From the IMG/VR virus record IMGVR_UViG_3300017971_000439, positions 1 to 42,822 of that record: DNA of 42,822 nucleotides, one strand, 5' to 3'. The DNA is from a virus. The notes beneath the pieces are model-generated. The model saw only the letters and a list, made by a program, of their open reading frames with translations. It had not been told where the DNA came from and did not search any database. Both the position numbers and the translations under genes were made by a program. Shown here in pieces: positions 5,677-42,822 of the stretch; the stretch's first letter is position 1, and each line of letters starts with the position of its first letter.

Positions 5677-5677
5677 A

Positions 5678-11715: not shown

Positions 11716-11788
11716 GTTGACAACCGCCACCCGCGCATATAAGAGCACCCCCAAGAAGGGCAACTATAACGAACACATGGGGGTGTGT

Positions 11789-12907
11789 ATGTCAGGATCG
11801 ATTCACCGTCGGCATGACGGCAGGGCATGGTATGTCAAATGGTATTTTCCGCACTTAAGAAAAGGCGTCAACGTTACCCGTTATCGCGGATTAATCTGCG
11901 AAACAAAAAACATGGCGTCAAAGCTTCTCAGCGCCATGCAGGGAGATGTCGAAAATGGAGTGTCAAGCAGGGGACTGTTTAGAAAATACAAGCTCGGAGA
12001 AACAGACACGATCCCTTATTTATGGGATTGGCTGGAGTCCGTCAGGGGAAATCTATCTCCGGCCACTTACAAGGATTACGCAAACTCGATCAAAAACCAT
12101 CTTGAACCATTTTTTAAACAAGCCGGATGCCAGCTCTCTGAAATTCAGTATGATACTCTCCAGCGATTGCAAAACTCTATTGATCGAACTCCAAAAGGAA
12201 TAAAAAACGTCATGTATTGCCTCCATACCTGTCTCGATTATGCCTGGAGGTCAAGCCGTATACCAGCCGTTCCGCCTTTCCCACGGATAAGGGTTCAAGA
12301 GCCAACCATCAAATGGCTGCCCGAACTCCGGCAGATCAAAATAATAAGCGCGATATCGGAGGAGCATCAGCCTATATTCTGGTGGTTGAAATACCACCTC
12401 AGACGGCCCTGTGAGGCGATGGCGTTACAATGGGAGGATTACGATGAGTCAACCGATTGTTTTATCATACGACGATCTGTGTCAGCTCGTAAGGTCGTAC
12501 AACGAACTAAAACGGGTAAAGAAAGCGTTATCCCTTGCCACAGCGAATTTAAACAATTTATGCACAGACTTAGACATGGTTTTAGCCCATTTATATTCAC
12601 TAACCCAAGGTCAAGGTATAAAGGACGCCGATATTCACACGGAGTTTTGTCTAAAATGTGGCAATCTGGCTGTAAAAGAGCTGGAGAATCAATTAGGATG
12701 TACGCAGGGCTCAAGCACTCGACCGCCAGCCAAATGATAAACGAGTCTGGCTATAGCCTCGATCAAGTGCAAAGAGCGGGAGATTGGAAAAGTTTTGAAG
12801 CGGTAAAGCGGTATGCGGCTACTGAGATTGAAGAAAGGCGAAGGTTGTTAGAGCGAAAGGTCGTATCTATTCAAAATATGTCCAAAGACGATTTAAAGAC
12901 CGGCTAA
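11789..12907 (+). CDS. int: Tyrosine recombinase (integrase), divergent active site
   Basis: Site-specific recombinase for integration and excision. An N-terminal beta region (GSIHRRHDGRAWYVKWYF) binds arm sites. A SAM-like core-binding domain follows (LSPATYKDYANSIKNHLEPF). The catalytic domain has the first Arg in YHLRRPCEAMAL and the nucleophile Tyr in VKRYAA near the end. The usual HxxR box is unorthodox, reading AGLKHSTASQ: Lys replaces Arg and no His precedes it. GDWKS replaces the later GH. The ORF is open from TTG 11717; ATG 11789 follows GGGGGTG and is preferred, with ATG 11777 the alternative. The attP core lies 40 bases downstream. Confidence 0.85.
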   Translation: MSGSIHRRHDGRAWYVKWYFPHLRKGVNVTRYRGLICETKNMASKLLSAMQGDVENGVSSRGLFRKYKLGETDTIPYLWDWLESVRGNLSPATYKDYANSIKNHLEPFFKQAGCQLSEIQYDTLQRLQNSIDRTPKGIKNVMYCLHTCLDYAWRSSRIPAVPPFPRIRVQEPTIKWLPELRQIKIISAISEEHQPIFWWLKYHLRRPCEAMALQWEDYDESTDCFIIRRSVSARKVVQRTKTGKESVIPCHSEFKQFMHRLRHGFSPFIFTNPRSRYKGRRYSHGVLSKMWQSGCKRAGESIRMYAGLKHSTASQMINESGYSLDQVQRAGDWKSFEAVKRYAATEIEERRRLLERKVVSIQNMSKDDLKTG

Positions 12908-13429: not shown

Positions 13430-13763
13430 GGTTATCATTGACGGAGAAGTTTATGTGAAAAAAGAAAAGATGACAGATAACATCGTTTTAGTTCGCACAC
13501 ACAGTGCGGGAGTGCATTTTGGAGAGTTGGCATATCAAAGCAATGATGGGAAGTTGGTTACATTAAAAAATGCAAAGCGTTTATGGAAATGGGTCGGTGC
13601 TGCATCGTTATCTCAAGTGGCGATTGATGGGGTTACAGATAAAAAGCAGACCATGATCCCACCTGCCGTACCCGAAATCACACTAACAGAAGCAATTGAA
13701 ATAATACCGATGACGGAAAAAGCCGTTAAAAATTTATCAGAGGTGCCAGTATGGAAAAAATAA
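13419..13763 (+). CDS. DUF6948-like phage protein, 114 aa
   Basis: Start at 13419 (MKNEVIIDGEVYVKK) is seven bases from AAAGGAG; an in-frame ATG two codons upstream is less well spaced. The core IVLVRTHSAGVHFGEL, then TLKNAKRLWKWVGAASLSQV, is the conserved signature of DUF6948, a small phage/mobile-element family of unknown function. Genes of this family are often followed by low-complexity Gly-rich repeat genes, as here. Its stop overlaps the start of the repeat gene. Confidence 0.7.
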   Translation: MKNEVIIDGEVYVKKEKMTDNIVLVRTHSAGVHFGELAYQSNDGKLVTLKNAKRLWKWVGAASLSQVAIDGVTDKKQTMIPPAVPEITLTEAIEIIPMTEKAVKNLSEVPVWKK

Positions 13764-14008
13764 ACCATGGAGTCGGCTATGGCTATGGCTATGGCTATGG
13801 CTCTGGCAATGGCTCTGGCTCTGGCTATGGCTATGGCTATGGCTATGGCTCTGGCTATGGCTATGGCTATGGCGATGGCTATGGCTCTGGCTATGGCGAT
13901 GGCGATGGCTATGGCGATGGCTCTGGCTATGGCGATGGCTATGGCTATGGCGATGGCTGTGGCTATGGCGATGGCGATGGCTATGGCTATGGCGATGGCA
14001 ATGGTTAA
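13751..14008 (+). CDS. Gly-Tyr/Ser/Asp repeat protein, 85 aa
   Basis: ATG 13751 follows AGAGGTG by five bases and overlaps the DUF6948 stop. After a short leader (MEKINHGV) the protein is 38 dipeptides of Gly-X with X = Tyr (20), Asp (9), Ser (6), Asn (2) and Cys (1), then a final Gly. Such a chain should be disordered and sticky. All three plus frames are nearly open through the repeat. The frame shown is chosen because of the ribosome site. Function unknown. Confidence 0.6.
   Translation: MEKINHGVGYGYGYGYGSGNGSGSGYGYGYGYGSGYGYGYGDGYGSGYGDGDGYGDGSGYGDGYGYGDGCGYGDGDGYGYGDGNG
13775..14002. repeat. 38-unit GGCNNT hexanucleotide repeat
   Basis: Every unit keeps GGC and a final T. The fourth base is T, G or A and the fifth A, C or G. 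The tract is exactly 228 bp without a single phase break. The minus strand and the two other plus frames are also long and open. Confidence 0.95.
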
Positions 14009-14015
14009 ATAACAG

Positions 14016-14268: not shown

Positions 14269-14619
14269 TTATTGGTTAACGACCATGGCCGCGGCCCGGT
14301 CGAGGTTCTCAACGATCAGCCTTTCGGTTTCCGGCGACGGAGCCGCCCCCTGATCGACATACGACACATAAACCGAAATCAACGGATATACCTGAGTAAG
14401 CACCATCTTTTTCTCGCGCATCATTTCTTTTTGCGGTTCCGTCAAATTCGGCATCGCCGCCATCGTCCGGTAGTTTATATCCTGCGCGTTATACATCGCC
14501 ATGAAAAACGCCGCCTTTTCCTTCGGCGTCATCTCCGATACCGGTTTCAGGTTATCGAACGTGCACGCCCCGATCACCATTAAAGCTATCAGCCCTATGG
14601 GTATAAATTTCCTTATCAT
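14269..14619 (-). CDS. Predicted lipoprotein, 116 aa
   Basis: The N-terminus MIRKFIPIGLIALMVIGAC is a lipoprotein signal with lipobox VIGAC, so Cys 19 should be lipidated and the mature protein anchored in a membrane facing the periplasm. The mature part is helical and Met-rich (KAAFFMAMYNAQDINYRTMA). It lies directly downstream of a small membrane protein and the endolysin, a position used by outer-membrane spanin subunits, but it is larger and less Pro-rich than Rz1-type spanins. Function otherwise unknown. Confidence 0.7.
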   Translation of the reverse strand: MIRKFIPIGLIALMVIGACTFDNLKPVSEMTPKEKAAFFMAMYNAQDINYRTMAAMPNLTEPQKEMMREKKMVLTQVYPLISVYVSYVDQGAAPSPETERLIVENLDRAAAMVVNQ

Positions 14620-14824: not shown

Positions 14825-15229
14825 TTAGCCTCCGTTCGTTTTAACGATTTCAAAATGCGGCATATCGATCAGCCGGTGATCCGTGGTGAAAGTATCCCGA
14901 TCCCAATCACCGCCCCACCTAATATCGATGTGCATCGCCCTGGCCTTCGCCATCACATAACCCGCGAACCATGCGAACCGCGCCGTGTCATTCCAGTCGA
15001 TGGGATACGGGGCCAGATCCACCGCCCAGGACGGTTCCCCATTGTGTTTTGAATACGGCCACCGCTTACTTGATCGCCCCGTACGATACGCTTCGTTCTG
15101 CTCGGCCTCTCCTCGATGACCGCATAAAACGCTGAAGTCGATCTCCCTTATCACAACCTCACACAGGCAGATCAGCGATGTGTCGCAAGTGTACAGCCTG
15201 TCATGGCTAATTCTGGAGAACTTCGGCAT
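14825..15229 (-). CDS. Endolysin, M15-type peptidoglycan endopeptidase, 134 aa
   Basis: Zinc peptidase that cuts peptide cross-links of the cell wall. The metal-binding pattern is SKHNGEPSWAVDLAPYP (His and Asp, about residues 60-76) with the second His in MPHFEI near the end, as in the VanY / L-alanyl-D-glutamate endopeptidase group. AFAWFAGYV-like helices between these are typical of phage M15 lysins. GGGAG precedes the ATG. There is no signal peptide, so a holin is needed for release. It overlaps the upstream gene by 23 bases. Confidence 0.85.
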   Translation of the reverse strand: MPKFSRISHDRLYTCDTSLICLCEVVIREIDFSVLCGHRGEAEQNEAYRTGRSSKRWPYSKHNGEPSWAVDLAPYPIDWNDTARFAWFAGYVMAKARAMHIDIRWGGDWDRDTFTTDHRLIDMPHFEIVKTNGG

Positions 15230-15404
15230 AATGCTCCCTCACTAATTCTGCGATTTCCTGATGCTGGTCGTCATCGATATGCCCCGTAACGACAGACGCC
15301 CACCCCACCATATGGCACAACCGCGTGACAATTTCGTCCAATTCCCCGAAATAATACATCCGCACAATCAAACGCCGGATGTATCTTTTTTCGGCCTTCG
15401 TCAT
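15207..15404 (-). CDS. Hypothetical protein, about 65 aa
   Basis: Preferred start is ATG 15404, one base overlapping the stop of the fibronectin-like gene. The sequence is all helical and amphipathic (TKAEKRYIRRLIVRMYYFGE, then a His/Asp-rich loop GHIDDDQHQEI). No transmembrane span. It is coupled to the endolysin on its downstream side. No family recognised. Confidence 0.6.
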   Translation of the reverse strand: MTKAEKRYIRRLIVRMYYFGELDEIVTRLCHMVGWASVVTGHIDDDQHQEIAELVREHYAEVLQN

Positions 15405-15832
15405 CACTGAGGACGCAGGCCAGTTGGCGCTGCAGGAGGCAAAAAATACTGAACCCCGAATTCATTTGCCGCCCCGACATATAAGGGATTATCCGACCAT
15501 GCGATAGCAGATTCCGCGACCACTTCTCCGCCGACCGTCCGGATAGCCTTGACCCCGACAAAATATTTGCCCTCCGTGTTCAGCGTGATCGTCGATACCG
15601 TGTTGGTAGATTGATCGACCTCCACCGGATTCGCCTTTTCAGGATCTGTTGTCGCGTTCGACATATACACCACATAAGACACCTCGGCAGGGTCTATCTG
15701 ATCCCCGCTTTCGTTGGTCGTGACTTCGTTCCACGCGATTTGTACCGAGTTGGCGGTATGCCAATTCTGAGCAAAAACAAAACCGGCAGCACTAAAAAAA
15801 ATAATCAACGTGACAAACAATATTTTTTTCAT
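15404..15832 (-). CDS. Secreted fibronectin type III-like protein, 142 aa
   Basis: The start at 15832 gives a typical Sec signal, MKKILFVTLIIFFSAAGFVF with cleavage after FAQ or nearby, preceded by GGAGG. The mature part looks like one FN3 beta-sandwich: VQIAWNEVTTNE, YVVYMSNATTDP, then TLNTEGKYFVGVKAIRTVGG. FN3 domains are common in phage surface proteins, but a cleavable signal is unusual for a virion part. It sits in the lysis region. Confidence 0.7.
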   Translation of the reverse strand: MKKILFVTLIIFFSAAGFVFAQNWHTANSVQIAWNEVTTNESGDQIDPAEVSYVVYMSNATTDPEKANPVEVDQSTNTVSTITLNTEGKYFVGVKAIRTVGGEVVAESAIAWSDNPLYVGAANEFGVQYFLPPAAPTGLRPQ

Positions 15833-16161
15833 TTTTTTGGCCTCCACAATTTGTTTTCTTTAATCCGCATCGTCATGCGTACCACTATAACGGTCAGTAT
15901 GATCGCCATCGGGAATAGCCGGTATTCCCATAATCGACTATCCAAAAGCCTATGCACAGCATTATAATCACCACCTAGAAAAAAAACCCTGGACACACCA
16001 GCCATCGAGGTCGCGTAGCCTATCCCCGCCAAAAGGAAGGTCATGTAAACATAGACTTTGCTTGCCTTTTTTTGTCTTATCCACCACCACAAAAAAAGTC
16101 CGAACCCATACCAGCAAGCAAGGCTTGTCCAGATATAGACGAACAGTGCAACGTCAAACAT
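15829..16161 (-). CDS. Multi-span membrane protein, 110 aa
   Basis: The start at 16161 (MFDVALFVYIWTSLACWYGF) is supported by GGAG upstream; the ORF extends eight codons further. Three hydrophobic segments are seen, at about residues 4-26, 36-60 and 80-100, separated by basic loops (RQKKASK). It may be an alternative holin or an accessory lysis-timing protein. No family recognised. Confidence 0.6.
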   Translation of the reverse strand: MFDVALFVYIWTSLACWYGFGLFLWWWIRQKKASKVYVYMTFLLAGIGYATSMAGVSRVFFLGGDYNAVHRLLDSRLWEYRLFPMAIILTVIVVRMTMRIKENKLWRPKK

Positions 16162-19658: not shown

Positions 19659-21266
19659 CTACACCTCAGCCTCAAAGACATCCATCTGCGCCCGATTCGG
19701 ATTGATATAATATGTGATGTTACCCACCGTGAAAGTATCTGTGCCCACAGTTAGCGAATCGCCAGGATTTAAAAACAGATCGACATCAACAAACCGATAC
19801 TGCAAAAGCCCCTGCGATACCCTCCGATAATTGGGTTTTGTCAGCGTAACATCCTTCGGCCCGAAAGAAGCTGTTTTGTATCCGGTCAACGTAATCGACC
19901 TATTACGCGCCCCCTTGTTATCGTCCACATTATCAATGGTGGCCCTTAAAATTTCTTCGCGCAACGACTCCACGCCACCGACCATGTAAACCGCCTCGAC
20001 AACCATTTCGCCATTCGGCCTCGCGGTGATATCACCCACATATTCGTATGGCACCACCGCCCCGATGTATGTTTTGGCGTCCGTTCTTTTCCTCCCGCTG
20101 AGAGTAATGATTTTCACTTCCGTGTCCGCGACGCCATCCGGTGTGCCGGTGATCGTCAGCGCAAACCGCTTCGTGGCGCGGCTGAGATTTTCCTTAATCC
20201 ATAACGAATAATTGTAAGCGTCCGCGACGGCATTAAGACCGACCTCCGCGCTTACTTCGCGCGGATATTCCCTATGCGCGTCAGCCCCGCTTTTAAAACC
20301 GATACCCGCCGCCATCCACTTGGTCTGATAATCCGCATCCACCGCGCCATTTAAACCTAATCCGGCATCGGCAAAAACATTGACCACAAACGCATCCACC
20401 GTGGCTTTAAACCCGACATAATTCAGGGCATTGTTGACGTTATAAATACTTCCGTTCGGCTCGACGGTTGCGTTGAGCCCTAAGTCTTCTTGAATATCGG
20501 CCCAATCGGTCTGGGCATCCACCGTGGCATTGAAGCCCATCTCGGCCTCAACATTGCCATTTTCATTAAAACCGTCTACCACGGCATTGAAGCCAACCCC
20601 CGCGTCAACCGAACCATAATAAGGCAGGGCATAAGCCGTACCGCTATTCACAAGAAAATTGTCGAAAGCACAATGTACGGTTACACCGCCCGATACCCTC
20701 CGACCGGCCAAATAGATAAATGGGCGAATCGTGTAATCGTCTTCTATCCCTGTGAACGTGTACCCATCGGTCCCTCCGTCCCACTCCCATTGTGATTCGC
20801 CGCTGTCCCACAAAAAACCCTTTACCACAGACCCGCTGCGGGTAAACCGGATCTTTGTAAATCCCAAGGTGGCCCCTGTATCAATTAGCTTTTCAGGGCT
20901 TCCGCTGGCATACGACCCAAACACAGACGGTTGATAGGAATAACCGCTATAATGTCTCAACCCGATAGTTTCCCAGATATCAAGTTCAGCCGTTGCAATC
21001 CCGAAGCTGTAAATCTGCCAGCTGCCATTTGTATACGAGCAATACTTCGAAGGAAAATCTATCTGGATGTCAAAATCACCATCGAATGCGCAGCGGCCGG
21101 CGGTCATCCAGCGTAAGATTTCATCCGTACCGTTGAGGCTTACATCGAGCCGGTAAGTGTTGCTCGATATATCAAACGCACTTTCATCATCCTGAATCAC
21201 TTCCCACTTGGAAGAATCCGGCGGATCACCGTCAGAACCGGTAAAATCATCATCCCAAATGCCCAT
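19659..21266 (-). CDS. Tail protein with lectin-like domain and G-F-N-A-x-V-D-A repeats, 535 aa
   Basis: The N-terminal 200 residues look like a concanavalin/LamG-type sandwich (DDDFTGSDGDPPDSSKWEV, CAFDNFLVN), suggesting glycan binding. From about 215 to 350 a short motif close to GFNATVDA recurs about seven times at 15-25-residue spacing, also as GLNGAVDA, GFKSGADA and GLNAVADA. The C-terminal 180 residues are beta-rich and end where the next tail gene begins. Start ATG one base after the upstream stop. Likely part of the tail tip or a fibre. Confidence 0.65.
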   Translation of the reverse strand: MGIWDDDFTGSDGDPPDSSKWEVIQDDESAFDISSNTYRLDVSLNGTDEILRWMTAGRCAFDGDFDIQIDFPSKYCSYTNGSWQIYSFGIATAELDIWETIGLRHYSGYSYQPSVFGSYASGSPEKLIDTGATLGFTKIRFTRSGSVVKGFLWDSGESQWEWDGGTDGYTFTGIEDDYTIRPFIYLAGRRVSGGVTVHCAFDNFLVNSGTAYALPYYGSVDAGVGFNAVVDGFNENGNVEAEMGFNATVDAQTDWADIQEDLGLNATVEPNGSIYNVNNALNYVGFKATVDAFVVNVFADAGLGLNGAVDADYQTKWMAAGIGFKSGADAHREYPREVSAEVGLNAVADAYNYSLWIKENLSRATKRFALTITGTPDGVADTEVKIITLSGRKRTDAKTYIGAVVPYEYVGDITARPNGEMVVEAVYMVGGVESLREEILRATIDNVDDNKGARNRSITLTGYKTASFGPKDVTLTKPNYRRVSQGLLQYRFVDVDLFLNPGDSLTVGTDTFTVGNITYYINPNRAQMDVFEAEV

Positions 21267-25604: not shown

Positions 25605-26609
25605 TTATGCGGTCACTCTCAAAGCTGCCGTTTCAGCCGACACGGTACAAGCCGCCGTTATGCTGTCACCCGCCGGAAAACTCTGCTGAATGCCGAGGTA
25701 TCCCTGTGACAGAATATACGGGGAGTTGAGCCGGTTCTGGTAGAACTTAAACCACAAATTGGAGTCAACATACTGCAGAATATTGTCGCTGATGCCGTCC
25801 TGCATGTCGAACGAGAACGACCCCTGGTTCAGGCTGGAAGATTTCGCGCCCTTCGTTCGTCCATAAACCTGCTTGGACGATATCGAATGAGAATTGTTCG
25901 GCGGTACGAAGTCATACGCATCAACCAACTCGGCGAAATCGGGCGTGTAATATGAGGCATAAACACCCTTGCCGACACTTCCGGTATGAATCGCCGCCAA
26001 CGCGGAATGAAACGTGACCCCCGCATAGCCGAGCACCCCATTTGAAACGGTTCCGTAAACGACATCCCATGTCGGATAATTATACATTTCTCGATATACG
26101 CCAGGAGTCTGCTTGATCTCGCTTGCCGTAATTGGCGCGGACGATTGAGATGACAACCAAACCTGTGCGATCTCGATAGAGGTCGTCGGGATCAACGGAG
26201 GCCCGCCCGCGGCATCCCTTGTGTCAGAAAAGCTCGTTCCTTCGGTGCCATCAACAACCGCGATCGCTCCGCCGGATGTCACAGTAATGGAAAACTTTTG
26301 ATAATCGTTTGCAGCCGGCCTTGAAATTGCCTCGTCGGTTGACGCACTAACAGAAGTCAGCGTTCCCGCCAAATAGCAAGTCAGCGCCGCGATGTCTATG
26401 ACGTCATTTGATCCGCTTGCCGCCACAGAAACCAGACCGCCGGTAGCGACACCGTTCGGCAACACGCTCGGCACATAACCGCTTCGCGCACTCCATAAAG
26501 TTGCCGTGGATTTAAAGGTTTTAAAATCACCCTGATCGGTCAGCGCGGTCATGGCAACCGGAGTCTGACCGGCCTCGTACATCAACTTTGCATTTTCAGC
26601 ATTCGGCAT
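25605..26609 (-). CDS. Major tail tube protein candidate, 334 aa
   Basis: GGAGG lies upstream. The sequence is Ser/Thr/Ala-rich and beta-type, with repeated strands such as FKSTATLWSARSGYVPS and a C-terminal Ig-like ending (DSITAACTVSAETAALRVTA). It precedes the tail chaperone and tape measure genes, the standard place of the tube gene. The segment TYGRTKGAKSSSLNQGSFSF-like (residues about 255-275) fits a tube hairpin. Identification rests mainly on position and composition. Confidence 0.7.
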   Translation of the reverse strand: MPNAENAKLMYEAGQTPVAMTALTDQGDFKTFKSTATLWSARSGYVPSVLPNGVATGGLVSVAASGSNDVIDIAALTCYLAGTLTSVSASTDEAISRPAANDYQKFSITVTSGGAIAVVDGTEGTSFSDTRDAAGGPPLIPTTSIEIAQVWLSSQSSAPITASEIKQTPGVYREMYNYPTWDVVYGTVSNGVLGYAGVTFHSALAAIHTGSVGKGVYASYYTPDFAELVDAYDFVPPNNSHSISSKQVYGRTKGAKSSSLNQGSFSFDMQDGISDNILQYVDSNLWFKFYQNRLNSPYILSQGYLGIQQSFPAGDSITAACTVSAETAALRVTA

Positions 26610-26627: not shown

Positions 26628-27086
26628 TTAGGATTGCGAGAAAGGGTCTCCCGCGACAGTTTTATAAACGATATTAAAAACGGCAGAGCACACGACCGCC
26701 GCGTCTCCCGGCTCTGGATATTCATCGACACCGCCGGATTGATACTCGATGCGATCCGCAAGTCCACTGGTCACATCGTCGGATAGATCTTCCATCCTTT
26801 TGCGAATGTCTCCCAGAATGTCTTCTGCAAGATCAGAAAGGTCATCACCTTGCGTAAAAGCGAGAATTCCTTCAATACGGATAGGCATGGTTGACCGGTT
26901 CTTGCCGTGTATTTTTTCGTTATCCTCCGACTGAGGCCAAACGGTAATCGCCGGTAATTTCGATGACGATAAATTCTTTCGCACCTTGAAAACATTTGTG
27001 CCGATCTCGGTCACATACCCATTAGCGGTCCTGATATCCGCGAGACTGGTCACAATGTTGGCGATGATTTCTTTTCTGATCGTCAT
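26628..27086 (-). CDS. Tail terminator-type protein, 152 aa
   Basis: The start at 27086 (MTIRKEIIANIVTSLADIRT) follows GAAGGA; an upstream in-frame start at 27119 would lie inside the terminator hairpin. The pattern of an N-terminal helix, VFKVRKNLSSSKLPAITVWP, then RIEGILAFTQGDDLSDLAED and a long helix, is that of Gp22/gpU-like tail completion proteins that end the tail tube. It precedes the tube gene. Confidence 0.65.
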   Translation of the reverse strand: MTIRKEIIANIVTSLADIRTANGYVTEIGTNVFKVRKNLSSSKLPAITVWPQSEDNEKIHGKNRSTMPIRIEGILAFTQGDDLSDLAEDILGDIRKRMEDLSDDVTSGLADRIEYQSGGVDEYPEPGDAAVVCSAVFNIVYKTVAGDPFSQS

Positions 27087-27197: not shown

Positions 27198-27830
27198 TTA
27201 AGCGAATTTTCTCAACTCATAAGCGAGTTCGTCATCAAATGTTTTTAAATAAAATTCATCGCCCGATTTTATAACAGCATTTAGAACTTTCGGTTTTGCC
27301 AATTCGTCTTCGATCCTAACATTGTCTAACACCTTCAACGGCAGCCGGTATTTTTTCGGCAGCATCCCATATGGGAAATCGGGCCGAAACTTTTTAGCCG
27401 GTGATTTGTATTCTTGACGCTCAAACATCGTTTTTGCAATTACCTCTTTACCTTTTTTTGTCACCGGCCTTTCCCAAATAAACGCATGCCTGAATTTGTA
27501 CCTCGTTCCGCCTTTTCTAAACTGAATCGAATATCCGTATTTTAACTTCCTAACTCCGGTAAATGACGCGAAATTAACCGGCGTTCCAGTTGACTTCACC
27601 CACATAGACAGGCTTGACCAATTCGCTTTTTTATAGGTGATGTTTTCTTTAATTCTCTTTTGGCTGATATTTAAAACGGCGTTTACCTGTTTTGCTGTTT
27701 GAGAAATGACATGAGTCATCGTCTTATTTAGCGCCCTTGTCTGCACCTTCGGGTATCCGTTTTTAATCCCTGACAAAACCAATTTGACGCCGGTTAGATC
27801 TCCCTGATCCATTTCGACTTGAAGGCCCAT
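27198..27830 (-). CDS. Minor tail protein Z-like, 210 aa
   Basis: Resembles lambda gpZ / prophage minor tail protein Z: YPKVQTRALNKTMTHVISQTA at the N-terminus, a basic middle (ISQKRIKENITYKKANWSSL), GYSIQFRKGGTRYKFRHAFI, and a hydrophilic C-terminus with FDDELAYELRKFA. gpZ acts in connecting tail to head. Its reading frame is followed by a terminator, so it closes a transcription unit. Confidence 0.7.
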   Translation of the reverse strand: MGLQVEMDQGDLTGVKLVLSGIKNGYPKVQTRALNKTMTHVISQTAKQVNAVLNISQKRIKENITYKKANWSSLSMWVKSTGTPVNFASFTGVRKLKYGYSIQFRKGGTRYKFRHAFIWERPVTKKGKEVIAKTMFERQEYKSPAKKFRPDFPYGMLPKKYRLPLKVLDNVRIEDELAKPKVLNAVIKSGDEFYLKTFDDELAYELRKFA

Positions 27831-28114
27831 TATGAATGCACCGGATTTTTAACGGTTATATAAGCGATGTCTCCATGCCATATGCCGTTCGGCGTTTCGA
27901 CATACGCTTGCAAGGCCCACCTTCCAATTACTGCCATGTCTCCGGATTGCAAAGTATACTCCACGCTGGTATTATCAGACCCCAGAGAACCGACCCACTC
28001 TCCGGTCGCGCTCGAATTACTATACAAAATATTGGTGATCGTCGCATCCGAAATATCCGAACCCACCGAAAGCTTGATCAATGTTCCCTCATCCCCGACA
28101 AATACGGTAGACAT
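27830..28114 (-). CDS. Small beta-rich structural protein, 94 aa
   Basis: Immunoglobulin-like or BppU-type strand pattern: GTLIKLSVGSDISDATITNI, then YTLQSGDMAVIGRWALQAYV and GDIAYITVKNP. Similar domains are found in phage receptor-binding and adaptor proteins. GAGGAA precedes the ATG, and the stop overlaps the gpZ-like start. It follows a tiny gene and the lipoprotein gene of the exported block. Confidence 0.6.
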   Translation of the reverse strand: MSTVFVGDEGTLIKLSVGSDISDATITNILYSNSSATGEWVGSLGSDNTSVEYTLQSGDMAVIGRWALQAYVETPNGIWHGDIAYITVKNPVHS

Positions 28115-28115
28115 T

Positions 28116-28286
28116 TTACAATTCCTCTAAGGTTATCTGAGAGCCTTTGTTTTCAACTTTCACCAAATCTCCGACCAAACCCACCAACGGCCCGATAAAC
28201 GACGAAGCCTCAACCTCTCCGGTGATGCGCGAATCCTTTTCAACCGGATCAATAAAACTATTCAGCTTGACCACCTCCCCGCTCAT
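28116..28286 (-). CDS. Small hypothetical protein, 56 aa
   Basis: ATG 28286 forms an ATGA overlap with the stop of the lipoprotein gene, and the stop TAA lies one base before the next start. The sequence starts MSGEVVKLNSFIDPVEKDSR and contains a Gly/Val-rich stretch SSFIGPLVGLVGDLVKV. Tight coupling on both sides and absence of rare codons support a real gene. No family recognised. Confidence 0.65.
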   Translation of the reverse strand: MSGEVVKLNSFIDPVEKDSRITGEVEASSFIGPLVGLVGDLVKVENKGSQITLEEL

Positions 28287-29044
28287 TGAATCGCACCCTC
28301 TTTTCGGATCGTCTGCCGAATACGGCTGTTTTTCCTGACAACTTCTTTGCGAACGACCATCGGAACGCCGTTTATAATGAAATCATCGATCAGAACATTG
28401 TCAGCCGCCGCCATTTCGCTTTTAATATCTATGATAAACGCAGTAACGTCAGAACTGCTTGAAACCGGAGGCGTCGGGCCGGACAGAACCGTCTTTGACA
28501 TCTCAACCCACGGGGCGCTCAACGCCTGACGCCAATGTGCACCAATATGTCGCGTTACGGCATCTCTAATAATTTTAACATAAATCGGCTTGTCCATCTC
28601 GACGGCTACAGCATCATAATATCCGACCCCGCCAAACGTAGCCCAATATCCCGATATTTCCCCCGTATCGTAATTGGCACCATCATAATTGATATAAACG
28701 TGATGCCCTAAAAGCGCATCATTTTCTTCGACAATACGAAAATATCCAGCAACGTATGTGTCGAAAAGATTCGGGTTCGGTAAAACCGTCCATTCAATTT
28801 GATACCCATCCATCCCATACCCGTCAGCGGAAAGCTGATACACTTCTGCACCTGAGTTTTGACCGGGGCTTACCACTAACCGCCCCTCAACCTCCGTAAC
28901 ACTCGCCGCCACAGTAGGAGGACCGGTTCCGAGGTCATAATAATTTATATTCCAAAAACCCTCAATTGATCCATTATCGAAATTATCAGATTGCAAGCAA
29001 CCTCCTCCGATTACTACCGCTATTAGCAAAACAAACCATTTCAA
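28283..29044 (-). CDS. Predicted lipoprotein with lectin-like domain, 253 aa
   Basis: TTG 29044 overlaps the TGA of the upstream gene and follows GGGAG. It yields MKWFVLLIAVVIGGGCLQ, a lipoprotein signal with Cys near residue 16. The mature part resembles a concanavalin-like sandwich: DNFDNGSIEGFWNINYYDLG, YQIEWTVLPNP, ALLGHHVYINYDG, then ADNVLIDDFIING, as in LamG/laminin-like glycan binders. Membrane anchoring of such a domain in a phage late operon is unusual. Confidence 0.65.
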   Translation of the reverse strand: MKWFVLLIAVVIGGGCLQSDNFDNGSIEGFWNINYYDLGTGPPTVAASVTEVEGRLVVSPGQNSGAEVYQLSADGYGMDGYQIEWTVLPNPNLFDTYVAGYFRIVEENDALLGHHVYINYDGANYDTGEISGYWATFGGVGYYDAVAVEMDKPIYVKIIRDAVTRHIGAHWRQALSAPWVEMSKTVLSGPTPPVSSSSDVTAFIIDIKSEMAAADNVLIDDFIINGVPMVVRKEVVRKNSRIRQTIRKEGAIQ

Positions 29045-31644
29045 TTCGCCAACTCCCGCAAGATACCCCCACACAATGCAGTTGGGTCCCAAACAATATC
29101 AGAAACGACGCCGCACCCAGATGTCAGCCAGCCCGATTCCTCAAGCCAAGTATCGGCTTGATACTCGTCATAAATATAGACGTTCTTAATATGAAACGGG
29201 TACTCGTTGCCGTAGGCGAGCCAGAGTTCGTTGCCAAGAGGAAAACTACCGTCATATGAATCTGACGAATGTTCCCAATCTCCGTCATTATTAGATACCG
29301 ATAAAGCGTTGCTACTTTTTGACCATCTAATTGAATAAACAAGCTCACTTCCGTTTGCCAACACAGTTGGGGATTCTGTCACAGAATTGGTTGCGTCTGA
29401 CGAATACATATTGCCAGCACCGTTCATCTTCAATATCCCTGCATCAGAATTTGTAACCGATAGAATTCCTCCGGCTGCAGATACATCAGCCTCGTCAAAT
29501 AAAGGAATCAGATCAAATATAAACGTCCCCTCACTTGTCGCCCCTCCCACGGCATCACTTAAGGCCGCCTTGACCGCACTCCCCATCGTCCACCGATAGC
29601 CGGTGTCATCACTGGCGTTCCCCGCCTCTGTCGTCCTCCACGCTGGGGAACCGTCTGTGGGGATGTAGCTGTCTATATACGGCGCTTCACGCAAATCCGC
29701 GCCGAAGATACCAATGGCATCCGTATCGGTGACTATTCTTATACCAACTACCGGATTGGTTTCTGTACCGCTGACGCTGAATCTCTGCCATGATGTCGTC
29801 AGCGTCTTGGTTGTCCATGTCGAGCCGTCATCGTCCGTCAGGTCGATATTGCCGGTGCCTGTTACCCGCTTCATCCAGATGGCGAAAGTGTCTGCCGTCC
29901 CGCCAAGTGGTGACGATACGGTATACTTCAGTGTACCGTTTGCATCGGTTGCTGTCAGCGTGTAAGCGGAGTTGGTTTCGCCGTCTGGTCCGGTAAGGTT
30001 GGCAACCGGCGTGACGTTGCTTGCCGTCCACTCGCTAAAATCCTCCGAATAATCCAGCAAATTCACCCCTTCTCCGTTGATGCTAAGTCCTTCGGCTTCA
30101 AAGCAGGGCTGTGCGGGGATGGTGCCGGTTGCGAAGTCGGATGGTTCTAGCAGGGCAAGGGGCGGGATTTCTTTGATTGAGAGGTTGCGGATATAAGCAA
30201 CCTCAGTCGCCGCCATATTATCGAACTGTATCTTGTCCGTAGCGACATTAGTGCATTTAAATACAAGGCTGTAATCAGCCCATGAGGTTGTCAGGGTTGC
30301 ACTTGCAAGCTCCGTATCATCGCTTTGAGCGATTTCAACGTCAACTGCACCGTTCGCGTACTTTCCTTGGAAATCAACCTGATACCATTGACCGGCTGTA
30401 AGATTGCTCGATAGGTCAGCGGCATCTGCTAAAGCTAATGACGCGCCTTGGTCTGTACTGCCATACGTCACCTTCACCGCTTCTTCAGTCTCGTCAATCT
30501 CAATCGTGTTGGTGCTGTAGGGTATCCATGAGACTTGTACGGGACGGAGTTTATCACCACTATCAAGCGTCACGCCTGTTCCGTCTGAATAGAAATAAGT
30601 CCCAACATCATTATCCGGTGCGCCTATTGTCGTAAAATCGGCATCGTCACGGGCCATAATGCGGTAAAAGGTGTTGTCTGTCGGGTTGCCGCTTGCTTCT
30701 TCACTTCCCGCCAACCCAGGCCATGCCTGACCGCTTGTGTTGGCATCGTAGGGGATGCCTTTGGCGGGGGCATCTATTTGCGCTAATTCGTCACCACTAC
30801 CAAGGGTGTCAGCGGATGTGGCAATAAAATAAGTGCCGGTGTCATTTGACGGTGCTCCAACAGTTGTAAAATCGAGTGTTGAACGAGATACAATGCGATA
30901 AATATTCCCCGTTACAGTATCGCTGCCGCTCGTAACTGAAGTTGTTTCCTCCTGATCGAACAGGTCGCTACCGATTGTGTTACCGGAGGGGAGTTCCTCA
31001 AGTTGAGCATGTGAGAAATAGACGTCACATGTCCCAGTATCAACATAAAGATGCATACCGCTGTTGCCAGATGAATTGTTGGTGAACTCATTAACAATAT
31101 TAGTTGGGGTATTTCTTGAAATTCTTGTCCACGCGCTACTGCTTAAACTTGATATTGGGTAAATATATCTTCCGTATTCACCGCTTATCGAACTATAAAT
31201 TCTAAGGTTTGTTGCTGTGCATGTACCGCCTTCAACCAATCTAACATATATAGACGGAATTATAGAAGCGTCAGCAGTATTCCCACTAGTGCCTTGATAA
31301 ATATCATTCAAAATAACCCCAAGGTTTACTACTTTTTCAGCAAGATTCCCTCCGAAAGGGTCAGTTACTTCGGTAGTGTTAACAGTTACGGTTGCCGTTC
31401 CTCTCACCGTCCACTGGTCAAAAGCAGTCGGGTCAGTAAGCAAGTTCTCCCGATTCCCATGCTTGGTCGTCAAAATACCGCTTGTCTCAACGCATGTCCG
31501 TCCCGATACCCTGCCGCACTCACCGGCGGTCAGACCGCCTTTGGAGTCAACTAGATTGCCTTTCAATGGAAGCCGGACAATTTCTCCCGCAAGAGACGGA
31601 ACTGATAAAAGTAAAAGCGACAATATAAGAGCAAGTCTTTTCAT
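29041..31644 (-). CDS. Secreted multi-domain carbohydrate-binding-like protein, 867 aa
   Basis: Start at 31644 gives MKRLALILSLLLLSVPSLAG, a clear Sec signal; AGGGA lies upstream. The mature chain is a string of beta-sandwich units. A CBM-like unit begins ENLLTDPTAFDQWTV; two copies of a unit with DFTTVGAP or DFTTIGAP and GTYF follow near 255-375; another CBM-like unit lies near 430-500 and one near 540-640. The C-terminal 160 residues look LamG-like (EGTFIFDLIPLFDEADVS). Sequence type resembles phage tail fibres, but the signal peptide argues for export. Confidence 0.65.
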   Translation of the reverse strand: MKRLALILSLLLLSVPSLAGEIVRLPLKGNLVDSKGGLTAGECGRVSGRTCVETSGILTTKHGNRENLLTDPTAFDQWTVRGTATVTVNTTEVTDPFGGNLAEKVVNLGVILNDIYQGTSGNTADASIIPSIYVRLVEGGTCTATNLRIYSSISGEYGRYIYPISSLSSSAWTRISRNTPTNIVNEFTNNSSGNSGMHLYVDTGTCDVYFSHAQLEELPSGNTIGSDLFDQEETTSVTSGSDTVTGNIYRIVSRSTLDFTTVGAPSNDTGTYFIATSADTLGSGDELAQIDAPAKGIPYDANTSGQAWPGLAGSEEASGNPTDNTFYRIMARDDADFTTIGAPDNDVGTYFYSDGTGVTLDSGDKLRPVQVSWIPYSTNTIEIDETEEAVKVTYGSTDQGASLALADAADLSSNLTAGQWYQVDFQGKYANGAVDVEIAQSDDTELASATLTTSWADYSLVFKCTNVATDKIQFDNMAATEVAYIRNLSIKEIPPLALLEPSDFATGTIPAQPCFEAEGLSINGEGVNLLDYSEDFSEWTASNVTPVANLTGPDGETNSAYTLTATDANGTLKYTVSSPLGGTADTFAIWMKRVTGTGNIDLTDDDGSTWTTKTLTTSWQRFSVSGTETNPVVGIRIVTDTDAIGIFGADLREAPYIDSYIPTDGSPAWRTTEAGNASDDTGYRWTMGSAVKAALSDAVGGATSEGTFIFDLIPLFDEADVSAAGGILSVTNSDAGILKMNGAGNMYSSDATNSVTESPTVLANGSELVYSIRWSKSSNALSVSNNDGDWEHSSDSYDGSFPLGNELWLAYGNEYPFHIKNVYIYDEYQADTWLEESGWLTSGCGVVSDIVWDPTALCGGILRELAN

Positions 31645-31645
31645 G

Positions 31646-32407
31646 TTATCCCTCAAACAATTTGATTGGCACACCGTACTCTTGAAGAACGCCAGCGTCT
31701 ATCGTCACTCCGTTGGCAATCGCTTCTTCAACCGTGCCCATACGCGGTTGCGTGTCGGTGAAATAGCCCTGGTCTAATCCGTATTGATATTGTTCTCCCA
31801 GGCTTGCACTTTGAAACGCTTGACTCGCCAGCACGCCCCCAGGTACAAGATGGTAAAACGCCGGATACCTTAACGTCTTCCCGGCTATTGTCTGGGCAAT
31901 GCTCATTTCGTCGTCATAAAGATCGGCAAAGGCTTTCTTTTCGGTGTCACCGTACCAATAAAGAATCTTATCGACATCGGCCTTGCCGACATTGTAGGCA
32001 TCTATCCAACCCTTGACCGCTGAAAGTTTGCCTGTCCTCTCCATCAAGCAAAAGAACACATGCCGGTTGCCCTGAGATACAAGCCGAACATAATTTTGCA
32101 ACACATCGTATTTATCGGTCAGAATAGAGCCGACCAGCGGGACCAGCCCTTTTTTAATCATGTAAGGCGTCACATAGCCATTGTCCCTTGCATACTGAAT
32201 CTTCTCCGCTAAAGTCGCGTTTTGATACGCCTGGGAGTTGACCACATTGTCAGGTAGCAACCCTGCAAGAAACAACTCCTTGTCGGCATCGCTTGAAGCG
32301 GAGAGGTCTACTGCCGGTGTGTAAAGGATGACTCTCAGGTTTTCAGCATACGCCGAATAAGCATACAGCAAAAGCACCACTATCGAAGCTATCCTGAAAT
32401 ACTTCAT
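31646..32407 (-). CDS. Exported protein with internal duplication, 253 aa
   Basis: N-terminal Sec signal MKYFRIASIVVLLLYAYSAYA with cleavage after AYA, preceded by GAGAGGG. Two stretches about 130 residues apart are similar: VVNSQAYQNATLAEKIQYAR, then DNGYVT, and VLASQAFQSASLGEQYQYGL, then DQGYFT. This points to an ancient domain duplication. The middle has aromatic helices (KILYWYGDTEKKAFADLYDD). No catalytic signature and no known family recognised. The next gene starts two bases after its stop. Confidence 0.7.
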   Translation of the reverse strand: MKYFRIASIVVLLLYAYSAYAENLRVILYTPAVDLSASSDADKELFLAGLLPDNVVNSQAYQNATLAEKIQYARDNGYVTPYMIKKGLVPLVGSILTDKYDVLQNYVRLVSQGNRHVFFCLMERTGKLSAVKGWIDAYNVGKADVDKILYWYGDTEKKAFADLYDDEMSIAQTIAGKTLRYPAFYHLVPGGVLASQAFQSASLGEQYQYGLDQGYFTDTQPRMGTVEEAIANGVTIDAGVLQEYGVPIKLFEG

Positions 32408-32519
32408 TATCTACCCTCTCGCAATTGCTTTCGTAAATATCAATCGCTAATGCCAACTCATTCAACGCCCTTAAAATATCAGGAATTAAAACCTTCTCCG
32501 TTGAGTCCTCTTTCGACAT
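32343..32519 (-). CDS. Small overlapping protein, 58 aa
   Basis: Bridges the lipase and the exported 253-aa gene, overlapping both. It starts MSKEDSTEKVLIPDILRALN and forms an amphipathic helix. Its last 21 codons share DNA with the signal peptide of the next gene. TGAGGT lies about nine bases before the ATG. The 70 bases not shared with other genes are otherwise unexplained, which favours a real gene, but the C-terminus (CLFGVC) is set by the overlapping frame. Confidence 0.4.
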   Translation of the reverse strand: MSKEDSTEKVLIPDILRALNELALAIDIYESNCERVDNEVFQDSFDSGAFAVCLFGVC

Positions 32520-33123
32520 GAGCAAAGACCTCACTGCTGTTCCATACCGCCAGGTGGTTCATCGGTTCATCCACATTATAGGCACCGTCAAGCTCGGCCA
32601 AAGAACCCAAAGAACAGTCGATACAATAGTACTTCACATCACCAGGAGTTTGGTCACCTTCGGGCTTAACCGGCATGTACCCATCCATCCCCACGAAGTT
32701 TCTGACCTTATCCACCCCGCCATAATTCATGATGTAGTCGAGGCTCGACCCTGCGCCCTTGCTGTACCCCACAAGATCCACCTTGCTGTACTGCCCGTTG
32801 AACCGCGCCAGCATGTTGTCCACCGCCGTTTTCACCATGTCACCGCTGAACTGCGTCAGGCCTGTAGAGTTGCTTAAGGCCGGTGTGATGATCATGTCTT
32901 CGGGCCAGCCCTTGTCAACCAGATAGCTTTTGAGCGGACTCATGTTAGACGGGTTCCCCAGATACCCATGGAAAAGTAGAACAGGGACTTTGCCTGTCGG
33001 CTGCGGTTCCGGCTCTGGCTCTGGCTCTGGTTCCGGCTCCGGTTCTGGTTCCGGTTCTGGTTTAGGCTCGGGATCCCATCCGAAGGCTTTTTTCCACCAC
33101 CATGTAATAAATCGCTTAAACAT
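32479..33123 (-). CDS. LipA-like alpha/beta-hydrolase (lipase) with Pro-Glu linker, 214 aa
   Basis: Predicted carboxylic-ester hydrolase. After a membrane-active looking N-terminus (FITWWWKKAFGWD) comes a linker of about a dozen Pro-Glu pairs, then a compact alpha/beta hydrolase. Oxyanion element LLFHGYLG is near 50-57, nucleophile elbow VGYSKGAG near 118-125, and the catalytic His in MNHLAVWNSSEVFAHVE, followed by GLNGEG. The last block closely resembles the C-terminus of Bacillus LipA (lipase class 2). The linker keeps Pro-Glu while its codons vary at third positions. No classical signal peptide. Confidence 0.8.
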   Translation of the reverse strand: MFKRFITWWWKKAFGWDPEPKPEPEPEPEPEPEPEPEPEPQPTGKVPVLLFHGYLGNPSNMSPLKSYLVDKGWPEDMIITPALSNSTGLTQFSGDMVKTAVDNMLARFNGQYSKVDLVGYSKGAGSSLDYIMNYGGVDKVRNFVGMDGYMPVKPEGDQTPGDVKYYCIDCSLGSLAELDGAYNVDEPMNHLAVWNSSEVFAHVERGLNGEGFNS

Positions 33124-33137
33124 AAGTTCTCCTTTAT

Positions 33138-33488
33138 TTACTCCGCTATCGTGATCACTACCGTTCCAGAGGAATAATCACCGGTTTTGACTCCCGCTCG
33201 GTACTGCACTTGATTAACTAGCATGGGATTGGCGATAATCTTTTCAGTATTTGCGGAAAATGTCTCCACGTCCATCCAACTGCCCCACGTTCCCGATATG
33301 TTAAACCGTCTTTGCAGCGTCACCGTTGCCGACCATGTTCCTGAAATGCTCAAACTTAAATAACCGGTATCGGGAACCAAAATTCCCGTGGTAAATGTAT
33401 TCTGCGCCCCTATAGATGCCGACTGCGCCGCACCGATAGGCATCGAAAACAATAGAATAATTACAAATGCCAGCAAAATTTTTTTCAT
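33138..33488 (-). CDS. Exported small beta protein, 116 aa
   Basis: Start at 33488 (MKKILLAFVIILLFSMPIGA, cleavage near AAQS) with GGGAGG upstream. The mature domain reads LSLSISGTWSATVTLQRRFN, then SGTWGSWMDVETFSANTEKI and QYRAGVKTGDYSSGTVVIT, a pattern seen in small phage decoration or fibre-tip proteins without a signal. The combination of virion-type domain and Sec signal is notable. First gene of the exported block, overlapping the connector gene by 4 bases. Confidence 0.7.
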   Translation of the reverse strand: MKKILLAFVIILLFSMPIGAAQSASIGAQNTFTTGILVPDTGYLSLSISGTWSATVTLQRRFNISGTWGSWMDVETFSANTEKIIANPMLVNQVQYRAGVKTGDYSSGTVVITIAE

Positions 33489-33829
33489 GTCGCTACCTCC
33501 CTCACAATACACACCGCCCATGTGTCATCGGTTTCGGTGGCTTCCGGTGAATCGACATAATACCGAAACCCGCTCTTTTCATTTATTTCGAAATAATCCC
33601 CGTATTCCGGTATTTTTCCCAGCGTGGTTAACTTCGCCCGAATTGTCGGTTTGTGGGCCATCATCCCCGATTCAAAAACAACGGGCATATGCTCGACTTC
33701 ACGCGAAAAAATCACGTTGCAACTCACCGGATCACCCGATATTGGCGTGTAAATAGCACTCAGGCCGGCGACGCTATCCTCTAAAATGTCGTCGGCGGCC
33801 TGAGATAAAGTGTCATAAAACTCGGTCAT
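33485..33829 (-). CDS. Head-tail joining protein (gpFII-like), 114 aa
   Basis: Pattern of lambda gpFII-type connectors: N-terminal helix (FYDTLSQAADDILEDSVAGL), a beta region with CNVIFSREVEHMPVV, and a C-terminal hairpin (EKSGFRYYVDSPEATETDDT). It directly follows the decoration and capsid genes in transcription order, the correct place for the tail-attachment protein. No enzyme motif. Confidence 0.6.
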   Translation of the reverse strand: MTEFYDTLSQAADDILEDSVAGLSAIYTPISGDPVSCNVIFSREVEHMPVVFESGMMAHKPTIRAKLTTLGKIPEYGDYFEINEKSGFRYYVDSPEATETDDTWAVCIVREVAT

Positions 33830-34306: not shown

Positions 34307-36388
34307 TTAGGCACCATAATTGAAATACAAAGCAACCCAATCGACGGCCTTTGCCGCGACATCGATCCGCACCTTGTACTCGACACCATCCACGGTCCAC
34401 CCCTGACGCTGCTCCATATACGGTTGGGACTGACCGTTAAGGAAAATCACATCCACGGTCATGCCTTTCGGCCCCGCAAGATACCATCCTGTGGCAAGCG
34501 CCGTGTCGAGCCGCGAATCATAGACCCGTGTGAAATAAGATCCGGCATACGGGTTCCGGCGCGTAGCCGCGAGGCTTGAATCCGTTGCGATAGTGTCAGA
34601 ATCAGCATATTGAAAGCTATTAAAAAACACTTCCATTCCGCCTTCAAGCGCCTTGGGCGCGATGATGTATTCAGGCCTGATGTTCATATTCGACACGCCA
34701 TTGATGTCTTTTTGAATACCCATCGCAAGAATGCCAGCGGCGATGGTGGCCTGACCTGGGGCCGCGCCAGACCCGGACGCAACGTAGTTGCTATGGTTCG
34801 TGGCATCAAACAGGTTATTGCCGTCACCCATCGCACCATTGGCGGTCAGAACCGCGTAAGCGACATCACCGATTTTTCGAGCCGCCGCCCGACCATGTTT
34901 GGCGGGTATATCAGTCAGCGCACCCAGATCGTCATTGATAATAACCTGTCTGGTAATGGCGAAAATCTTGCCATAGGTCGCCAACTGAAAAGTTTCCTTT
35001 TTCTCAGACAGGGAACCGTATTGGTAATCTCCATGTTCCGGCACTTCCTCCAAGGCCTCGGCCTCAGACACGCGGTGCAACGTATTCGACTTGAAATCCG
35101 TGACCGATCTCGTCCCGCACCAGACCCCGTAGGTTTCGTTCGCCATCTCGAAACCCCTGAGAAGGGCCTTGTTCGCCGATGCCGCCAGAACGTAGGGCAA
35201 CTCTCCGGTTGTCAGCGCACGTCCGACCATTTCAACCGGATGGCTCGGAATTCTCTCCCCCGCGATCCGCAGGCTTTCCCGCGCCAATTCCCTCAGAGTC
35301 ATGCCCTGCAATTCGGTGGCCCCCGCCGCCGGTTTTTCCACCGGCAAAGCCGCCCTGAGCATGACACCATCAACCGCCGCCTCTCTGAATTTTTCCCGTT
35401 CGTCCTTTTCGACGGTCATCTGCCCGACCGGTTCCTGCCGCGTTCTCTCAATCTCTTTTAAAACGAGCTCTCGCGCCTTGTCCACCGGCGTGCCGTCCTT
35501 GATCATCCGCTCCTGGACAGATTCATCCACATCGAACTTGCGGCACATGGCCCCGATCTCTGCAATTCTCTCCCGCTCGATCCTCTGGGCTTCGGCCCTG
35601 ACCTTGTCTTCGTCCACCGGCTCGGCACTTGCATCCGGTTCCGGATCCTGTCTCCGGTCATCCCCAAAGGTGAATCCGGAATTAAAAAAGAAGGCCCACG
35701 CCTCATCGTCGGAGGCATCCTTTGAAAGGCCGCGCTTTTCCAGCAATTTTCTTAACTTTTTATTCATGGTATCAACTCCATCCGTTTTTTCAGGTTGCTT
35801 GTTATTATGAGCCCCTCTTGCCTTTGCCAACTCGTCCGCGCCGATCGTCACCGCCGACAGTTCCTTCGGTCTCCATCGCGTGGCCACCTTCACCGGCCCC
35901 ACAAAGCTGCGCCCCTTGATGGTTGTCTTTTCCCCATCCGGCACCCATTGTGCCTCAATCACGCGATAGCCAACGCTGAAATCCGTTAAGTGACCTTCCC
36001 GTACCTTTGTCCACGGCCCCTCGGCCTCCGGTACACTCGAAAAATGCACCCGCCCTATCAGCTGACCGTTATCGGTCTTCATACCCCGAAACGACCCCAG
36101 AACGCTGCTGGTGCTGTACCGTGAGTGCGAGTCTAAAAGCGGCACTTGCCGCGACCCAGGCAACTCGACCCCATCCATCAAAAGAACTTCCGGTATAATC
36201 TCGTACCGATCATAATCAAAAACCTCCACCGGCTCTTCGGTGGCCCCGATCACCTCAACGCTTCGGCTCTTTTCGTCAACGGTAGACGGCGCTCCATCCC
36301 CTCTTGTCTGAATCGACATCGAGCGGTAATTCAACTTGTCAGCCGGATCTTTTCTTTTCCCGAAATATCCGTTTTTGCCATATCTCAT
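34307..36388 (-). CDS. Prohead protease - major capsid protein fusion, 693 aa
   Basis: Residues 1-200 are a prohead protease-like domain: LPLLDSHSRYSTSSVLGSFR-like segment (DSH near 87), GRVHFSSVPEAEG, and GHLTDFSVGYRVIEAQWV. Residues 210-330 are a charged, helical scaffold or delta region with MNKKLRKLLEKRGL, where an internal start may exist. Residues 340-693 are the capsid domain, gpT/HK97 type: DFKSNTLHRVSEAEALEEVP, TYGKIFAITRQVIINDDLGA, and YKVRIDVAAKAVDWVALYFN. Processing of the shell precursor by its own protease domain is inferred. Confidence 0.85.
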   Translation of the reverse strand: MRYGKNGYFGKRKDPADKLNYRSMSIQTRGDGAPSTVDEKSRSVEVIGATEEPVEVFDYDRYEIIPEVLLMDGVELPGSRQVPLLDSHSRYSTSSVLGSFRGMKTDNGQLIGRVHFSSVPEAEGPWTKVREGHLTDFSVGYRVIEAQWVPDGEKTTIKGRSFVGPVKVATRWRPKELSAVTIGADELAKARGAHNNKQPEKTDGVDTMNKKLRKLLEKRGLSKDASDDEAWAFFFNSGFTFGDDRRQDPEPDASAEPVDEDKVRAEAQRIERERIAEIGAMCRKFDVDESVQERMIKDGTPVDKARELVLKEIERTRQEPVGQMTVEKDEREKFREAAVDGVMLRAALPVEKPAAGATELQGMTLRELARESLRIAGERIPSHPVEMVGRALTTGELPYVLAASANKALLRGFEMANETYGVWCGTRSVTDFKSNTLHRVSEAEALEEVPEHGDYQYGSLSEKKETFQLATYGKIFAITRQVIINDDLGALTDIPAKHGRAAARKIGDVAYAVLTANGAMGDGNNLFDATNHSNYVASGSGAAPGQATIAAGILAMGIQKDINGVSNMNIRPEYIIAPKALEGGMEVFFNSFQYADSDTIATDSSLAATRRNPYAGSYFTRVYDSRLDTALATGWYLAGPKGMTVDVIFLNGQSQPYMEQRQGWTVDGVEYKVRIDVAAKAVDWVALYFNYGA

Positions 36389-42811: not shown

Positions 42812-42822
42812 CGTTAGCGACC
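42812..42822. repeat. Right copy of 11-bp terminal identity
   Basis: CGTTAGCGACC, same as positions 1-11. Confidence 0.6.

Follow-up and report, generated by a model that had tools for sequence, protein, structure and literature searches.

The closest described systems include the following. Lambda Lom and Bor and other morons are accessory proteins that are exported and whose genes lie among the late ones; morons have their own promoter and terminator and are expressed in lysogens, and Lom is an outer-membrane beta-barrel. The Llp/Cor-type exclusion lipoproteins of the T5 kind are also phage-encoded and exported, they are situated in or near the tail or receptor-binding genes, and they are proposed to block the receptor against secondary adsorption (PMC9586334). 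Accessory neck and collar fibres such as gp80-82 of A-1(L) (PMC10966104) and NPS of TP901-1 (PMC4493119) possess carbohydrate-binding modules tied to the portal or neck and are virion parts made in the cytoplasm. Here we describe a block of eight open reading frames (ORFs), g1 to g8, in the window, which is the whole 42,822-base IMG/VR record IMGVR_UViG_3300017971_000439 of a temperate tailed phage. The block shares features with each of these systems. Unlike Llp, a small and early-expressed lipoprotein whose target is FhuA, it consists of several large fibre-type and carbohydrate-binding-type proteins of the late operon; g4 and g5 are large, and all exported members except perhaps g6 have signals of the signal peptidase I (SPI) type, which does not match a small receptor-blocking lipoprotein. 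Unlike morons, no promoter or terminator of its own is evident and the domains are of the fibre or decoration type. Signal-less homologues of g1 and g5 occupy the neck-fibre slot in another phage, but the block proteins carry export signals, and their likeness to the neck fibres is one of carbohydrate-binding modules and of gene position.

The head-tail operon is lambda-like and lies on the minus strand, as do the block and its borders. The original prediction placed consecutive genes with export signals between a gpFII-like connector and a gpZ-like tail gene, and this was borne out for the borders by Pfam and PHROGs and for the signals by rule. The upstream border is an FII-like head closure/connector gene (33485-33829; PF05354, Phage_attach, 1.3e-7; phrog_82, head closure, 8.7e-6) and the downstream border is a gpZ-like tail completion/Neck1 gene (27198-27830; PF06763, Minor_tail_Z, 1.7e-6; phrog_27, 4.1e-17). 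Both proteins are thus present in the window, but they are not adjacent as in the lambda-type order, being 5655 bp apart. Relatives were gathered through the conserved gene at 25605-26609 (minus strand; phrog_30644, 5.5e-98), which follows the tail terminator gene and was taken as the tail tube. This gave 80 viral contigs and 23 host-genome contigs, the latter including many from Desulfobacterota/Deltaproteobacteria and Gammaproteobacteria. Among cultured hosts, Marinobacterium litorale and Methylobacter marinus were seen to harbour prophages of this related kind. The FII-gpZ distance was 128 bp or less in 60 of the 66 relatives having both genes; it was 495 bp in one and ambiguous in five. 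Many relatives (L004-L019, L022-L114) carry cargo elsewhere, in the interval between terminator and tube, roughly 1.6-8 kb long. That cargo, assigned by eye, is composed of glycosyltransferase-, methyltransferase- and fibre-like proteins and represents a hot spot separate from the FII-gpZ slot. The 5-prime half of the block, from FII to the start of g5, was seen in one assembly only, and the identical contig L004/L003 begins inside g5.

The block genes are tightly packed or overlapping and share the strand of the late head-tail operon. Promoter-like sites numbered 22 against 13.7 expected, none of them well placed ahead of g1, and the scan gave no convincing promoter or terminator belonging to the block. 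A terminator-like hairpin (27142-27119) was found downstream of gpZ, such sites being only mildly enriched (21 against 14 expected). Late lytic expression is therefore the natural reading, and the suggestion that the set is supplied in lysogens was not upheld by this arrangement.

Export signals were called by a home-made rule which considers n-region charge, h-region hydropathy and the cleavage site and which is conservative, missing PhoA and MalE. The rule accepted four of the eight ORFs, g1 (MKKILLAFVIILLFSMPIGAAQSA), g4 (MKYFRIASIVVLLLYAYSAYA), g5 (MKRLALILSLLLLSVPSLAG, with the start at 31644 and not at 31674) and g6 (LKWFVLLIAVVIGGGC). The remaining four, the lipase g2 and the small g3, g7 and g8, have no Sec signal; for the lipase, which the original prediction listed beside the exported genes, this is a correction. 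Shuffled N-termini were positive at a rate of 1.0%. Of 537 homologues of virion proteins made in the cytoplasm (terminase, portal, capsid, FII, gpZ, terminator, tube and the gene that follows), the rule picked out 4, even with alternative starts within 60 codons allowed. Given this low background, four positives among eight consecutive ORFs are not due to chance. In g1, g4 and g5 an n-region, a hydrophobic h-region and an A-X-A-type cleavage site are present at the translated start, and good Shine-Dalgarno sequences precede the assigned starts of g1, g2, g4 and g5. Export of g1, g4 and g5 is well supported by these sequence features, and g6 is probably exported as well. The g6 product was originally called a lipoprotein. 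Its Sec-type signal was retained, but its lipobox, I-G-G-G-C with Gly at the -3 position, is non-canonical, being rejected by the lipobox rule while the SPI rule accepts the N-terminus, and the lipoprotein label is thus uncertain. Cysteine content and even cysteine parity were tried as independent evidence of export and set aside, as the number was even in 10 of 20 and the content not clearly different.

The first gene of the block, g1 (33138-33488), overlaps the FII stop and encodes a Sec signal with cleavage near residue 21-24 followed by a jelly-roll domain of ~93 aa. The structure prediction proposed for the mature domains gave for g1 a confident AlphaFold model (mean pLDDT 89.6), in which residues 21-116 form the jelly-roll and the signal residues 1-20 score low. 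A fold search with g1 returned generic jelly-roll/beta-sandwich matches only (TM about 0.5 or less), from which no function was derived. The same domain is found in signal-less 87-aa proteins of the podovirus-like Mesorhizobium phage Lo5R7ANS (Lo5R7ANS_61) and Rhizobium phage RHph_I20 (EVC11_051), at 37-44% identity. Unlike these, g1 has a signal placed exactly ahead of the domain, the match starting at residue 24-25 where the signal ends. A profile scan extended the family to 336 relatives. Among 83 loci examined, 77 have no signal, and many of the family adjoin portal- or terminase-like genes in podovirus-like contigs. The signal calls in L126 and L127 appeared false by eye and were excluded from the count. 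Three independent signal-bearing g1 genes were distinguished, in the window, in L012 and in the L186/L190/L191 group. The window, L012 and L190 copies are diverged and keep the n-, h- and c-region features despite different letters. In L012 and L190 the gene next to the g1 homologue is a signal-bearing fibre, while the neighbours of signal-less g1 genes are also signal-less except for one membrane-protein-like case. The g1 domain was also observed fused within phage proteins of 485-1137 aa of the 'FNRGIVSP..ALAR' type (L148, L157, L172, L187, L231), which are probably virion proteins. In the two rhizobiophages L115 (4998-6511) and L116 (4998-6909), the gene after a signal-less g1 homologue encodes a protein in which SGNH/GDSL-esterase-like motifs were seen by eye; the window counterpart of this order is g1 followed by the lipase.

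The largest member, g5 (29041-31644), is composed of a Sec signal and 848 aa of repeated carbohydrate-binding/LamG-type modules. Its relatives are the identical contig and one signal-less protein of 2,499 aa in L223 (the contig of L175), with which it shares five stretches at about 40-45% identity. The L223 homologue has a Pfam CBM_4_9 domain (2.4e-10); the Pfam search of g5 itself gave no match, and a structure of the g5 C-terminus from a two-row alignment was unusable (pLDDT 40). In L223 a g1 homologue comes next after the g5 homologue, and the two are situated between a head closure gene, Hc1 (phrog_25, 9e-16), and Neck1 (phrog_5, 3e-12). As judged from these alignments, a phage whose head-tail system is of another kind has the g1 and g5 families at the operon position they take up in the window, there with no signals, and g1 and g5 appear as signal-tagged versions of proteins that other phages make without a signal. 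An equivalent protein that does bear a signal was found in L240, where a tail-fibre homologue of 1,005 aa (phrog_4492, 1.2e-25) occupies exactly the place between Hc1 and Neck1. The g1 family, the CBM_4_9 domain of the g5 homologue and this match to a PHROG tail-fibre family agree with the earlier view of the mature domains as fibre- or decoration-like.

To see how far signal genes cluster, 97 non-redundant loci chosen irrespective of signals were scored, and 54 of their 1,290 operon-strand genes were signal-positive. Nine adjacent signal-gene pairs were counted. Global shuffling predicted 2.0 and reached nine or more in 1 of 5,000 shuffles; shuffling within loci predicted 3.1 and did so in 5 of 5,000. 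Two of the nine are in the window; the pairs of L015/L017, next to the tape-measure gene, and of L114, of lysis type, do not represent fibre modules. The genuine pairs outside the window are in L012, where a g1 homologue and a fibre with phage-type repeats are both signal-bearing, in L034, a small beta-protein and a fibre, again both signal-bearing, in L110, where two signal genes follow a portal-like gene, and in L021 (MW202621), with two signal genes between portal and capsid genes. Beyond these pairs, a fibre-like signal protein lies one gene past FII in a Thiohalocapsa prophage (L101), a signal module lies between portal and head genes in L190, and two signal genes follow a large virion-type gene in L231, a genome contig from the phylum of L098 (Desulfobulbales MAG). 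Small-protein-plus-fibre pairs with signals were found in L012, L034, L190, L264 and L305. In a separate sample of 69 distinct ORFs sharing a common fibre repeat, 13 bear a signal; a signal-bearing neighbour is present for 4 of these 13 and for 3 of the 56 signal-less ones (Fisher p=0.02). The L240 protein is one of the 13. Judged by sequence, the module type, a signal-tagged fibre with a small beta-protein among head, neck or tail genes, recurs, and the window is not a lone oddity. The claim that this gene set has no described counterpart accordingly holds for the exact set, which was found nowhere else, but not for the type of module. The contig of L190 (L224/L225) was also seen to carry a g1-like protein, a 1246-aa fibre, a small lipoprotein and an FnIII protein, all signal-bearing, with portal, gpF-like, protease and capsid genes lying among them.

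Among the other block genes, g2 (32479-33123) encodes an alpha/beta hydrolase like Bacillus subtilis lipase A (PDB 1t2n, 3.1e-17; also 1i6w). Over 167 residues the triad Ser nucleophile and His are aligned, but the region of the catalytic Asp133 falls in a 5-residue gap, and unlike lipase A g2 has an added N-terminus (MFKRFITWWWKKAFGW) which forms an amphipathic helix (hydrophobic moment 0.69) and then runs into a Pro-Glu repeat linker. The 58-aa g3 (32343-32519) bridges the end of the lipase and the start of g4, and may be a translational coupler only. A Sec signal and an orphan mature protein of 232 aa make up g4 (31646-32407), which had no relatives in the viral contigs, the phages or 297 genomes. 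The g6 gene (28283-29044) has a TTG start overlapping the g5 stop and encodes, after its signal, an orphan domain of ~235 aa. It is followed by g7 (28116-28286; 56 aa) and g8 (27830-28114; 94 aa, beta-rich). No relatives of g2, g3, g4, g6, g7 or g8 were detected among the fetched loci, and Pfam detected no catalytic family in g1, g4 or g5.

Unlike the export signals, the function of the block proteins is something we infer. Our tentative preference, somewhat short of an even chance, is that the block encodes late-expressed, Sec-exported fibre/decoration proteins which act outside the cell and mask glycan receptors around lysis. In such a scheme the block proteins would be expressed with the head-tail operon in the late phase and would leave the cytoplasm, so that they could not join the virions assembling there. 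They would fold in the periplasm and, no later than lysis, get to the medium or the surface of the cell, where the fibre-type proteins would bind glycans of the host envelope and mask receptors of the dying cell, of its debris and of neighbouring cells. Progeny would thereby be spared non-productive adsorption and competing phages would be excluded, much as with T5 Llp though here by soluble binders of the fibre type. Lysis would also set free the lipase, whose targets may be membrane lipids or acylated polymers. In T5, adding the purified soluble receptor-binding protein pb5 to cells blocks infection, and Llp and similar exclusion proteins are considered to keep phage from adsorbing non-productively to fragments of lysed cells (PMC9586334). 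Several points weigh against receptor masking. The signal calls depend on a home-made rule; g1, g4 and g5 have no outer-membrane anchor, leaving passage across the outer membrane before lysis unexplained; and the search for the same synteny in other phages, proposed with the original prediction, found the exact gene set in no second phage. Moreover, g6 shows no similarity to the phage's own tail protein (19659-21266), and no domain common to the block and the virion's receptor-binding candidates was detected, and hence nothing shows the two competing for one receptor.

Host-surface remodelling, superinfection blocking and virion attachment are alternatives to be weighed, and the last is the main rival to receptor masking. 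According to it, the proteins wait in the periplasm and bind passing virions at lysis, for example at the portal vertex or neck, as accessory neck or head fibres assembled outside the cytoplasm. Accessory neck fibres as such are known, signal-less g1 and g5 homologues lie between the head-closure and Neck1 genes of L223, and a virion role is likely where g1-family genes adjoin portal/terminase-like genes in podovirus-like contigs. The signal modules, however, occur at the head, neck, tail-tip and lysis side, a scatter which does not suggest one docking site on the virion, and we know of no tailed phage whose fibres are assembled outside the cytoplasm; we hold this explanation to be unlikely. 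Less likely too are the three that follow. That the hydrophobic N-termini are uncleaved parts of cytoplasmically assembled virion proteins, serving as trimer anchors or membrane-penetrating peptides, would suit an operon whose other products are virion parts and domains whose homologues are in signal-less, probably virion, proteins. Cytoplasmic virion proteins are almost never positive under the rule, though, and n-, h- and c-regions can be told apart in the N-termini, together with A-X-A-type sites, features kept in the diverged copies of the window, L012 and L190; this is the least probable of all.

Lysogenic conversion, in which lysogens make the proteins and show them on their surface as adhesins or as an exclusion system, as with lambda Lom or Bor, is a little less probable than virion attachment. 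The phage is temperate, having an integrase (11717-12907), and exported morons in late regions are established, as lambda lom attests; but no own promoter or terminator stands out, the genes overlap their neighbours, and the recognisable domains are phage-fibre types and not those of host genes. More doubtful again is degradation of the envelope or its polysaccharides before lysis, with exported binding modules and lipase loosening capsule, lipopolysaccharide or outer membrane and so aiding release or spread. The lipase adjoining g1, the esterase-like motifs seen by eye after the g1 homologue of two rhizobiophages and the carbohydrate-binding modules of the g5 homologue are in its favour, set against a lipase with no Sec signal and with its catalytic Asp unaligned and the lack of a detected catalytic family in g1, g4 and g5.

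Beyond this locus, we give slightly less than an even chance to the broader proposal that tailed phages repeatedly add Sec signals to fibre/decoration modules, often as a small beta-protein with a neighbouring fibre, and that these form an undescribed class of extracellular adhesins active around lysis, in receptor masking, exclusion or virion attachment after release. The presence of similarly tagged fibre genes in many environmental phages suggests that, ahead of lysis, phages export versions of their own fibres that serve as decoys or coat surfaces. Exported phage proteins are already known, and the phage genome reports consulted list 0-2 signal-peptide genes per phage; exported fibre modules look new, no description of signal-tagged fibre modules having been found in a literature whose subscription journals were thinly covered. 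Genome annotation routinely treats phage proteins of the fibre type as parts of the virion, and host-range prediction makes use of them. If about one in five fibre proteins carries an export signal, many would not be on the particle, and phages would have a general, unstudied means of manipulating the host exterior at lysis. Homologues with and without a signal at one and the same operon position represent natural experiments.

Elsewhere in the window, one more gene near the lysis genes encodes a Sec-signal protein by rule (15404-15835, minus strand; signal MKKILFVTLIIFFSAAGFVFAQ). It has an FnIII-like domain, a fold assigned by eye, was found again in the identical contig only, and possibly belongs to the same functional class as the block. 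Close to it are an endolysin-like ORF recognised by eye (14825-15229) and a lipoprotein with a VIGAC lipobox (14269-14619, minus strand) near lysis-like genes. The tail terminator gene lies at 26628-27086 (minus strand; phrog_4204, 8.8e-10), with its start adjusted to ATGACG. A 693-aa ORF (34307-36388, minus strand) resembles a prohead protease fused to the major capsid protein, as it does in relatives including L007 and L009. Primase, Cas4-type exonuclease and helicase are also encoded. PAPS-reductase-like and ParB-like genes at 4435-6817 (minus strand) have a G+C of 0.36-0.37 against about 0.5 elsewhere and are probably recent acquisitions. A low-complexity hexamer-type repeat at 13750-14010 is open in several frames (MAMAMA, GYGYGS). 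The two ends of the window (1-11 and 42812-42822) share the 11-mer CGTTAGCGACC, which may reflect overlap in the assembly or a short repeat at the termini.

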